A DNA stretch of 64,000 nt from Bacteroidota bacterium (GTDB lineage Bacteria > Bacteroidota > Bacteroidia > Chitinophagales > Chitinophagaceae): the NCBI GenBank assembly GCA_947460595.1, contig CANHGS010000010.1, forward strand, positions 1-64,000. Direction: 5' to 3'. Numbering within the stretch: position 1 is the first letter of the stretch; each line of letters opens with the position of its first letter. This document shows positions 43,151-55,368 of the stretch, in pieces. Made by a program: the position numbers and the translations under genes. The notes beneath the pieces are model-generated. The model was given only the letters and a program-made list of their open reading frames with translations. It did not search any database and was not told where the DNA came from.

Positions 43151-43750
43151 ATGGAATCACTCAATCAAGCATATTGGAATCAGCAATATGAGCAGGGTAA
43201 TACTGGATGGAATATTGGAACTGTTTCTACGCCATTAAAATCCTATTTTGATCAATTAACACATAAAAATCTTAGCATTTTAATTCCTGGAGGCGGGAAT
43301 GGACATGAAGCGGAATACTTATTATCATTAGGTTTTACCAATATTAGTATTTTAGATATTGCACCAAAAGCTATAGCAGCATTAGAAGTTAGATTTGAAG
43401 GGCAAATTGGTAAAACATTACATTTAATTCTGGGAGATTTTTTTGACCACCTAGGTCAATATGACTTGATTATTGAACAAACTTTTTTCTGTGCATTGGA
43501 TCCTAGTTTGAGACAAGCTTATGTAGAAAAAATGGCTGCACTATTATCAAACAATGGAAGACTATCTGGGCTTTTATTTGATGCGCAATTTCCAGTGGGT
43601 CCACCATTTGGCGGAAATAAGCAAGAATATCAAGACCTTTTTTCTACCCATTTTAATTTCAAAAAATTAGCTCCCTGTTATAACAGCATTCCCCAAAGAA
43701 TGGGGAATGAATGTTTTATCATTGCAACAAAAAAGCAAGCAGATTTTTAA
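43151..43750 (+). CDS. TPMT-family SAM-dependent methyltransferase
   Basis: YWNQQYEQGNTGWNIGTVSTPLKSYF; LIPGGGNGHEAEYL; DLIIEQTFFCALDP. Confidence 0.88.
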   Translation: MESLNQAYWNQQYEQGNTGWNIGTVSTPLKSYFDQLTHKNLSILIPGGGNGHEAEYLLSLGFTNISILDIAPKAIAALEVRFEGQIGKTLHLILGDFFDHLGQYDLIIEQTFFCALDPSLRQAYVEKMAALLSNNGRLSGLLFDAQFPVGPPFGGNKQEYQDLFSTHFNFKKLAPCYNSIPQRMGNECFIIATKKQADF

Positions 43751-43764
43751 ACTGCTTGCTTTTT
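43729..43764 (+). terminator. Terminator overlapping the methyltransferase stop codon
   Basis: AAAAAGCAAGCAG-ATTTTTAAA-CTGCTTGCTTTTT, stop codon TAA in loop. Confidence 0.85.
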
Positions 43765-43831
43765 CACTTTTCATTTCTTCACTCTTCGCTATTCACTTTT
43801 CACTTTTCACTCTTCACTCTTCACTTTTCAC
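43761..43831 (+). repeat. Degenerate 7-bp tandem repeat (TYTTCAC)n, about 10 units
   Basis: ttttcac ttttcat ttcttcac tcttcgc tattcac ttttcac ttttcac tcttcac tcttcac ttttcac. Confidence 0.95.
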
Positions 43832-44898
43832 TATAATGGCTCCTGTTGACTCAAACAATGAAAGCTACCTAATCCCCAAATAATATCGGTTGAGTCAATT
43901 CCTACCGTTTCTCTATTAGGAAAACATTGAGCAATGATTTGTAAGGCTTTGTCATCCTTTGCAGATCGGAACGTAGGAACAATTACGTGTTTGTTGCTAA
44001 TATAAAAATTGGCATAGGATGCTGGAAGACGTTGATCTTCATAGATAACTGCGTCAGGCATTGGAAGTTCAACAATATTTAATTGTTTTCCGTTTAGGAG
44101 CCGCATGGCTTTTAACTGATTTAAATTGGTTTGCAAGAGCTCATAATTTTCATCTTGTTTATCTGATTCCACAACAGTGATGACCGTGTCTTCATTTACA
44201 AACCTAACCGTATCGTCAATATGACCATCCGTATCGTCACCAACTATACCATCATCCACCCAGAGTATTTGATCAACACCATAATAATTAGAAAGATAGT
44301 TTTCTATCTCTGACTGATTTAAATGAGGGTTTCTATTTTCATTCAGCAAACAAGCTTTTGAAGTCATTAGAGCTCCCTTACCATTAAATTCTACAGAACC
44401 ACCTTCCATAACAATGCCAGGATGAAAAACAGGCATACTAAAATGCTTGCCAATCAATGTTGGGATTACATCATCTAAATCAAAGGGCGGATACTTATTT
44501 CCCCAAGCATTGTAATTCCAATCTACAATTACTTTTCTATCTGCGGCAGAATCATTAATCAGAAATGCGGGGCCATGGTCCCTACACCAAGCGTCATTAG
44601 TTGGATGCAAATAAAAAGACACTTTGTTTAAATCCACACCTGCACTATTCAAATGCCCTATAGCAAATGCTTTCATTGCTTCATCTACAACATTAATACG
44701 CACTTCTTCACCTAGAGATAAATACTTGATAAACAAAGCATAATTGGGATAAATGCTATCAATCTTACCTGGCCAGCTAGCTTCTTTGTGTGGCCAACTC
44801 AACCAAGTTGCTACATGTGGCGCAAACTCTGCTGGGAATTTGTATCCTAAGGAAGCAGGAAGTATGCCGTTAGTATCTTTCAATGACATGTGTTTCAT
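43831..44898 (-). CDS. aguA: Agmatine deiminase
   Basis: ATWLSWPHKEASWPG; NDAWCRDHGPAFL; DDTDGHIDDTVRFV; LPASYANFYISNKHVIVPTF. Confidence 0.94.
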   Translation of the reverse strand: MKHMSLKDTNGILPASLGYKFPAEFAPHVATWLSWPHKEASWPGKIDSIYPNYALFIKYLSLGEEVRINVVDEAMKAFAIGHLNSAGVDLNKVSFYLHPTNDAWCRDHGPAFLINDSAADRKVIVDWNYNAWGNKYPPFDLDDVIPTLIGKHFSMPVFHPGIVMEGGSVEFNGKGALMTSKACLLNENRNPHLNQSEIENYLSNYYGVDQILWVDDGIVGDDTDGHIDDTVRFVNEDTVITVVESDKQDENYELLQTNLNQLKAMRLLNGKQLNIVELPMPDAVIYEDQRLPASYANFYISNKHVIVPTFRSAKDDKALQIIAQCFPNRETVGIDSTDIIWGLGSFHCLSQQEPL

Positions 44899-53853: not shown

Positions 53854-54198
53854 TTATTTTACTTGAGCAACCAAAGCTTTAAAGCTTTCTGGCTGATTCA
53901 TGGCTAAATCAGCCAAAACCTTACGGTTCAAATCAATTCCCTTTACACTTAATTTATTAATAAACTGGCTATAAGTCATACCTTCTTCTCTTACGGCAGC
54001 ATTAATACGCGCAATCCACAACTGGCGGTATTCACGCTTCTTTAATTTACGACCTACATAACTATAAGTCAAACCTTTTTCAACAATATTTTTGGCTACG
54101 GTATAAACGTTTTTACGTTTACCATAAAAACCTTTTGCTTGGTCAAGGATTTTTTTCCTTCTAGCCCTAGATGCTACTGCATTTTTTGAACGTGGCAT
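53854..54198 (-). CDS. rplT: 50S ribosomal protein L20
   Basis: [37 protein letters not shown]; 114 aa. Confidence 0.98.
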
Positions 54199-54277: not shown

Positions 54278-54478
54278 CTATCCTTTCAAACGCAATAAAC
54301 GTAGAACAAAGTCTTTGTTTGGAGCACTTACCAAACCTTTCTTGTTCAATGCTCTTTTACGTTTTTTAGATTTCTTAGTCAAGATATGACGTTTGAAAGC
54401 TTTTTGGAAAGTGATCTCTCCGGTACCTGTCACCTTAAAGCGTTTTTTAGCGCTGCTGTTGGTTTTTACCTTTGGCAT
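54278..54478 (-). CDS. rpmI: 50S ribosomal protein L35
   Basis: [22 protein letters not shown]; start trimmed to 54478 from ORF start 54523. Confidence 0.97.
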
Positions 54479-54590
54479 GTTAAATAATCTTATTGAGATT
54501 ACACCCTGCTGGCGTTCCAACACGGGTTGGAAACTTGTTGAGCCCTACGGGAAATGTCCGATTTTTTCGGATGGCAAAGGTAAGAAAAAA

Positions 54591-54706
54591 AGTGAAGAGT
54601 GAAGAGTGAAGAGTGAAAAATGTAGGAAATAAATGAAAAGTGAAGAGTGAAAATTAAAGGAAAAAAGTTAAGAGTGAAGAGTGAAGAATGAAGAATGAAG
54701 TGTGAG
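54591..54706 (-). repeat. Degenerate 7-bp tandem repeat (TYTTCAC on - strand; GTGAARA on +) between infC and rpmI
   Basis: agtgaagagtgaagagtgaagagtgaaaa ... atgaaaagtgaagagtgaaaa ... gttaagagtgaagagtgaagaatgaagaatgaagt. Confidence 0.95.
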
Positions 54707-54743
54707 ACTAAAGCTAACTAATTGATTATTAAGTCTTAAAAGC

Positions 54744-54772
54744 AAGAAAGCGGCCTTTAAGGACGCTTTCTT
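54744..54772 (-). terminator. Hairpin between infC and rpmI (terminator/attenuator candidate)
   Basis: AAGAAAGCG-g-CCTT-T-AAGG-a-CGCTTTCTT, one mismatched pair; weak T-rich tail. Confidence 0.7.
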
Positions 54773-54792
54773 GATCAAAGTAATTATCTAGA

Positions 54793-55368
54793 TTATGCCT
54801 TCTTTTTGCCTGTTTTAGGCGTAAAAATGGCAAACATTCTTTTTCCTTCTAATTTAGGCATGCTTTCTAAAGTTCCTGCTTCAGCCAGTCTTTCTGCAAA
54901 TTTCAACAACAATAACTGTCCTCGGTCTTGGAACATGATGGCACGTCCTTTAAACTGAACATAGGCTTTTACCTTATTCCCATCTTTCAAGAAGTTTTCG
55001 GCATGTTTGGCCTTGAAATTGAAATCATGGTCATCTGTACCAGGCGTAAAGCGAATTTCCTTCACCTCACTTTGCTTGGAGTTGGCCTTCATTTCTTTTT
55101 CCTTCTTCTTCTTTTCGTAGAGGAATTTCTTGTAATCAATCACCTTACAAACCGGCGGATCAGCCGTTGGGGATATTTCTACCAGGTCTAACTCTTGCTC
55201 CTGGGCAATCTTCAAAGCCTCTGAAGTTGGATAAACGCCAACTGTTACATTGTCGCCTACCAAACGAACTTGCAAAACGCGAATTCTTTCATTGATACGA
55301 TGTTCAGGCTCCGGCTGCCTGTTAAACCTGGGGTTAAATCTTCCTCCGCCTCTTGGTGGTAATGCCAT
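54793..55368 (-). CDS. infC: Translation initiation factor IF-3
   Basis: INERIRVLQVRLVGDNV...GVYPTSEALKIAQEQELDLVEISPTADPPVCKVIDYKKFLYE. Confidence 0.97.
   Translation of the reverse strand: MALPPRGGGRFNPRFNRQPEPEHRINERIRVLQVRLVGDNVTVGVYPTSEALKIAQEQELDLVEISPTADPPVCKVIDYKKFLYEKKKKEKEMKANSKQSEVKEIRFTPGTDDHDFNFKAKHAENFLKDGNKVKAYVQFKGRAIMFQDRGQLLLLKFAERLAEAGTLESMPKLEGKRMFAIFTPKTGKKKA

Follow-up and report, generated by a model that had tools for sequence, protein, structure and literature searches.

The infC-rpmI array and the rpmI leader

The infC, rpmI, and rplT genes lie on the minus strand of the 64,000-nucleotide stretch of DNA analyzed here (the window), and the spacer between infC and rpmI holds a terminator-type hairpin, a heptamer array, a probable promoter, and a structured leader (Table 1). 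Elsewhere in the window, a second heptamer array borders an agmatine deiminase-like gene.

Table 1. Positions in the window of genes, arrays, and associated features
Feature	Position	Strand	Basis or remark
infC (IF-3)	54793..55368	-	NCBIfam equivalog TIGR00168, E 3.4e-58
Intrinsic-terminator-type hairpin 3' of infC, then T-rich stretch	54743..54773	-	MFE -16.9 kcal/mol, z -4.07
Heptamer array (TYTTCAC)n, three interrupted blocks	54591..54706	-	116 bp; plus strand is (AGTGAAG)n
G-free stretch	54576..54707	-	132 nt, 30% C; longest G-free run of the window (next, 60 nt)
TACCTTTG, -7 element of probable rpmI-rplT promoter	54575..54582	-	Fits Bacteroidota consensus TAnnTTTG
Structured rpmI leader	54479..54570 (approximate)	-	Conservation and covariation
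rpmI (bL35)	54278..54478	-	NCBIfam equivalog TIGR00001, E 1.9e-23
rplT (bL20)	53854..54198	-	NCBIfam equivalog TIGR01032, E 5e-45
Agmatine deiminase-like gene	43831..44898	-	NF010070, E 6e-85, below curated cut-off
Second heptamer array (TYTTCAC)n	43761..43832	+	Minus strand reads (AGTGAAA/G)n from the agmatine-deiminase stop codon
Terminator-type hairpin of the convergent methyltransferase-like and agmatine-deiminase genes	about 43730..43763	both sides usable	-16.7 kcal/mol, z -4.86

TRF places the infC-rpmI array at 54591 to 54705, with a period of 7, 16.7 copies, and 69% matches, and the second array at 43761 to 43832, with 10.1 copies and 83% matches. With at most one mismatch, the sequence TTCACTYTTCACT is found at 15 places in the window, always within these two arrays, against 0.24 occurrences expected from shuffles. 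These results bear out a preliminary description that recognized (TYTTCAC)n in blocks on the minus strand and noted that the two arrays have motif and period in common. The same description placed a hairpin ahead of the array at both loci and gave a distance of about 38 nt for infC-rpmI, where the gap is 37 nt on the minus strand; at 43761, hairpin and array abut with no gap. The hairpin preceding the infC-rpmI array is an ordinary terminator, also found in near relatives. Neither strand of the array folds (MFE of 0 over the array), and the array has no inverted partner within its spacer.

Other heptamers occupy the infC-rpmI spacers of related Chitinophagaceae: GGTATAG (L047), AATTAGG (L044), AACAAGA with TTTCTTA (L040 and L041), and TTTTGAA (L036 and L037). 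The earlier supposition that similar heptamers are common in Bacteroidetes thus holds for related members of this family. Heptamers were present in 10 of 44 infC-rpmI spacers and in 20 of 246 spacers used for comparison, a contrast in which the infC-rpmI spacers are longer and some are mislabelled, and a special enrichment at this position was dropped for that reason. In four infC-rpmI spacers (L040, L041, L042, and L043), an array follows one gene and its reverse complement precedes the next, an arrangement that recurs in other spacers (L170, L178, L182, and L197) and from which a very long hairpin could form.

The Bacteroidota -7 consensus lies at positions -12 to -5 (PMC9723704), and the rpmI transcription start is predicted near 54570. 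The TTG expected at -33 is found 18 to 21 nt upstream of the -7 element in 38 of 56 relatives, typically at 19 to 20 nt, and in none of the 5 relatives with a TTCAC array (P = 0.002, a generous test, the species being related). It is likewise missing at the infC-rpmI locus itself, where the array overlies the -33 position of the probable promoter. Because the array is upstream of this likely promoter, its copy number cannot change the promoter-initiated rpmI leader, contrary to what had been proposed; a change in copy number would instead alter the promoter-upstream region and read-through RNA.

The rpmI leader, a conserved element of Chitinophagaceae, was recognized at 55 of 57 loci and has the layout CCC-GUAA-GGC-UCAACAAGU-variable stem-CGCC-AGCA-GGG-UGUAAUCU. 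Its stem shows compensatory changes in six pairs, with 60 double-change cells compared with 20 in shuffles, and the covariation collapses in slid controls. Like the L20 leader (Rfam RF00558) and other ribosomal leaders, it is a structured RNA ahead of rpmI-rplT, but identity with the L20 leader was rejected, since no ribosomal leader in Rfam 15 matched at the gathering threshold or at E ≤ 5. A covariance model of the rpmI leader found matches in 2 of 118 genomes of a phylum sample, both Chitinophagaceae. No L20 or L35 leader from Bacteroidota is among the 20 in PMC7247131. This leader is a candidate bL20 or bL35 autoregulatory element and apparently an RNA undescribed so far.

Distribution and polarity of the arrays

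Polar heptamer arrays at gene boundaries form a genus-level family, to which the infC-rpmI array contributes one copy. The strict trimer TTCACTYTTCACTYTTCAC has 185 matches in the 3.66-Mb genome, compared with 6 for a reversed control. Among 150 genomes drawn from the family, matches are dense in this genome and in one congener only, and those in one other genus are moderately numerous and exclusively TTTTCAC; the array word is present in 5 of 61 genomes of the same genus, so densely populated genomes are few. Arrays range from 3 to about 28 units, and 42 of the 44 period-7/14 arrays in the sampled stretches of the source genome are intergenic. One spacer of this genome has a different heptamer, (ATTCAAC)n, following its AGTGAAG array (L111:7103-7151).

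Polarity was assessed in 27 stretches around the listed matches plus the window (446 kb, with genes called by a simple hexamer scorer); this sample, chosen around dense matches on contigs 1 to 14 and covering part of the genome, holds 39 arrays of at least 3 units. When an array is read as TTCAC from left to right, the gene to its right converges on it in 35 of 38 cases (binomial P = 7e-8), so that the coding strand reads stop codon, then (AGTGAAG)n. Of these 35 arrays, 29 overlap the stop codon or begin no more than 10 nt from it, and starts this close to or overlapping a gene edge number 24 of 33, as against 5.1 expected from random placement within spacers. Purines make up 78.5% of the first 30 nt after the stop in genes with arrays and 49% in genes without them, which rules out a general purine richness of 3' ends. 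The preliminary description had anticipated a dispersed class of arrays that is tied to gene ends and strongly biased in orientation, and such a class exists in the sampled stretches; it had, however, drawn the polarity from the upstream gene and its hairpin, and the bias is the inverse, with the gene reading into the array. At 43761, the relevant neighbor is therefore the opposing agmatine-deiminase gene, whose TAG stop codon (43831-43833) is flush with the array, in keeping with the rule.

The infC-rpmI array is one of the three exceptions among the 38 and sits just upstream of a promoter. Its functional neighbor is the rpmI promoter rather than the infC stop codon, and since its purine strand leads away from that promoter, it too obeys the rule of a purine strand directed away from the gene. 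Across the arrays, (AGTGAAG)n leads away from the gene, mostly from the stop codon and less often from the promoter. A similar pattern appears in a genome of another genus (G009), where the word is AAAGGTG or AAAAGTG and the purine strand leads from stop codons or, reversed, lies upstream of starts: relative to the nearest gene, 23 of 29 arrays are directed away (P = 0.002) and 6 toward, several of the latter being in spacers that have arrays at both ends. A 14-bp repeat, ACCCGACCGGTGGC, is found in G009 as well, at several sites that are mostly spacers (L165:16046 and 17692, L169:1840, L170:18524, and L175:15582).

For spacers of at least 40 nt, a convergent neighbor is more frequent for genes with arrays (14 of 25) than for others (58 of 189; odds ratio of 2.9, P = 0.02). 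Wherever a terminator was detected in an array spacer, the array lies between it and the stop codon, and these terminators start 105 to 243 nt past the stop, compared with mostly 13 to 27 nt elsewhere. The hairpin is thus the terminator, and hairpin plus array as a single element is ruled out. Terminator-like sites occur at the same frequency whether or not an array is present, which excludes replacement of terminators by arrays.

Most arrays are retained in the congener G089, which has both arrays of the window. That genome was searched for the C-terminal segments of 30 genes with arrays and of 30 controls: at least 3 GTGAA units lay within 200 nt of the stop for 28 of 30 array genes, as opposed to 1 of 29 controls (Fisher exact test, P = 2e-13), and copy number differs at nearly all of the orthologous arrays. 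In G184, a further genome of this genus, the sequence at most array genes is related yet rearranged, examples being AGTGAAGAGATAAAAG and GTGAGAA. Composite sequences are common to many loci in three genomes, indicating spread by copying beyond slippage alone; arrays may have grown by slippage combined with copying of a seed sequence. On the purine strand, cytosine constitutes 0.7% over 47 arrays. Variant units containing C are present but rare, their raw counts being inflated by variants that have spread, and selection against C within the units is less strong than it seemed at first.

Recurrent hairpins accompany some arrays. At gene 3' ends in both the source genome (L116, L128, and L131) and G089 (L118, L120, and L122), the hairpin ACCTAGGCTGCGCCTAGGT and its variants adjoin a stretch of the GTAAACGAGTT type together with a short array of AGTGAAG units, and the element resembles a REP-like interspersed repeat. 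A regular-expression search for the longer hairpin-plus-array repeat, with a pattern that was too strict, returned zero copies, and only the core was counted. A different repeated hairpin, GTTAACCCCGGCTTTCAAGCCGGGG with its variants, comes after the arrays of several unrelated genes in G184 (L266, L267, L289, and L293).

Possible causes of the polarity

Our best mechanistic guess, to which we give a probability of roughly 0.35, is that the arrays are kept or tolerated in their polar orientation as one-way barriers to transcription. On its way out of the gene, a polymerase would make purine-rich RNA and pass, and one entering the gene, either antisense from the 3' side or by read-through from upstream, would make a long, unstructured, C-containing, and almost G-free RNA of the kind on which Rho loads. 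At infC-rpmI, the array would keep transcription that leaks through the infC terminator away from the separate rpmI-rplT promoter. Rho sites comprise at least 70 to 80 nt of unstructured RNA with more C than G (PMC6407284), a description that fits the incoming strand at infC-rpmI, with its 132 nt, 0 G, and no predicted structure, and a Rho gene is encoded in the genome. When 78-nt segments of both strands of the window are ranked by C minus G, the two arrays take ranks 1 and 3, and the infC-rpmI array alone provides segments free of G. The orientation bias, the placement at gene edges, the retention in G089, the surplus of convergent neighbors, and the scarcity of C on the purine strand are all consistent with such a barrier, as is the like orientation in another genus (AAAGGTG) and, from the literature, in Xanthomonas.

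Other observations fit a barrier poorly. YC dimers are not enriched in the infC-rpmI array, numbering 24 compared with 30 in shuffles; some relatives' words, such as TGAATTT in L037, include G on the incoming strand and do not have more C than G there; and the contrary arrays of G009 point toward their nearest gene. The equal frequency of terminator-like sites with and without arrays also counts against it, and slippage and copying could leave arrays free of C without selection. Moreover, the arrays of Nostoc have the same polarity, yet cyanobacteria lack Rho (PMC13289151), and Rho therefore cannot explain the whole class.

About as likely overall as a barrier is a satellite without function, expanded through slippage and spread as copies of a seed, with purifying selection confining arrays to spacers and their orientation being simply the one that is tolerated. 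CU-rich untranslated RNA after the stop codon would bring premature termination or other trouble, and the purine orientation, with stops (TGA) in all three frames, would be harmless. According to work cited in PMC4679880, which proposed slippage, heptamers outnumber the other categories of longer simple repeats in many bacteria rich in repeats. The variety of words among relatives (GGTATAG, AACAAGA, AATTAGG, TTTTCAC, and AAAGGTG), the unequal copy numbers at orthologous arrays, and the composite sequences that reveal copying all agree with this explanation, and Rehm et al. recognized no functional class among genes with such arrays (PMC4692102). However, starts flush with stop codons are far commoner than random placement would give, retention at 28 of 30 loci is high for freely drifting sequence, and the mirror orientation of arrays upstream of promoters is not what intolerance of CU-rich RNA in the sense direction would lead one to expect.

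Unlikely, by comparison, is a sense-strand 3' untranslated element whose purine repeat RNA binds a hypothetical RNA-binding protein or shields the 3' end of the mRNA. Most arrays lie between stop codon and terminator or within tandem spacers and are therefore probably transcribed as GA-rich RNA, but arrays upstream of promoters would lie outside the mRNA of their own gene. More improbable still is an origin as a remnant or part of a mobile palindromic element (REP or MITE-like): the ACCTAGGCTGCGCCTAGGT-core hairpin stands beside short arrays at several gene ends of the source genome and G089, but most arrays have neither such a hairpin nor a terminal inverted partner, and both are missing at infC-rpmI. 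A G-quadruplex element, as proposed for GGGAATC in Xanthomonas and Nostoc, matches in location and polarity (PMC4692102) but is contradicted by the sequence and can scarcely be entertained, since the main word AGTGAAG has isolated Gs and no G-tracts, such that G-quadruplexes cannot be the common cause.

Relation to known heptamer repeats

The incoming strand at infC-rpmI resembles rut sites in being C-rich, G-free, unstructured, and longer than 70 to 80 nt (PMC6407284). Rut sites are, however, a functional class and not a sequence family, and the array, judged by its sequence, would be a rut-like candidate without YC enrichment. Short tandemly repeated repetitive (STRR) heptamers, dispersed in filamentous cyanobacteria and variable in copy number, differ from AGTGAAG arrays in both word and host. 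The TAACTGA direct repeats of Beggiatoaceae and some Cyanobacteria and Bacteroidetes (MacGregor 2015, PMC4679880) are, like the arrays described here, 7-nt intergenic units with a patchy distribution that includes ribosomal-protein operons, and they form long arrays in some Bacteroidetes. They lie mostly a few nucleotides upstream of start codons in one orientation and have been read as translational control sites. Membership of this group was rejected, the unit here being AGTGAAG and most arrays following stop codons.

The closest counterparts are the G-rich heptamers GGGAATC of Xanthomonas and GGGGA(C/T)T of Nostoc (Rehm et al. 2015, PMC4692102), although the preliminary description knew of no named family with this arrangement. 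Downstream repeats in those genomes are on the coding strand, at most 50 bp from the stop codon or overlapping it, and upstream repeats, likewise no more than 50 bp from the open reading frame, are on the non-coding strand; the same loci carry repeats of different lengths in related species, and their function was left to be elucidated, with G-quadruplexes favored (PMC4692102). The AGTGAAG arrays share the 7-nt unit, the genome-wide intergenic distribution, the stop-codon polarity, and the retention of loci with varying lengths. They differ in phylum and word, in lacking G-tracts, in being interrupted, and in having words that vary between related species, and whereas the repeats of Rehm et al. 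prefer four units, no such preference was noted here. The non-coding-strand orientation of upstream repeats fits infC-rpmI and the two other exceptions to the stop-codon rule. Owing to the intervening leader, the infC-rpmI array, flush with the promoter, is 111 nt from the rpmI ATG; the array at L139 is 15 nt away.

It is conceivable, if rather doubtful, that unrelated bacteria have repeatedly evolved heptamer arrays as one-way valves at gene edges, shielding genes from antisense and read-through transcription, with the word interchangeable and the direction, purine- or G-rich strand away from the gene, decisive. The AGTGAAG arrays, which reproduce the geometry of the Rehm et al. repeats in Bacteroidota without having G-tracts, remove the G-quadruplex as a general cause and shift the question to the direction of transcription or to a common way of spreading, and the infC-rpmI copy places an array over the -33 position of a ribosomal-operon promoter. 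The boundary-polar geometry is already known from Xanthomonas and Nostoc, and the present family is a variant with a different, G-tract-free word: agreeing in location, stop-codon polarity, and conservation but not in quadruplex potential, these arrays belong with the kind described by Rehm et al. and outside its quadruplex class.
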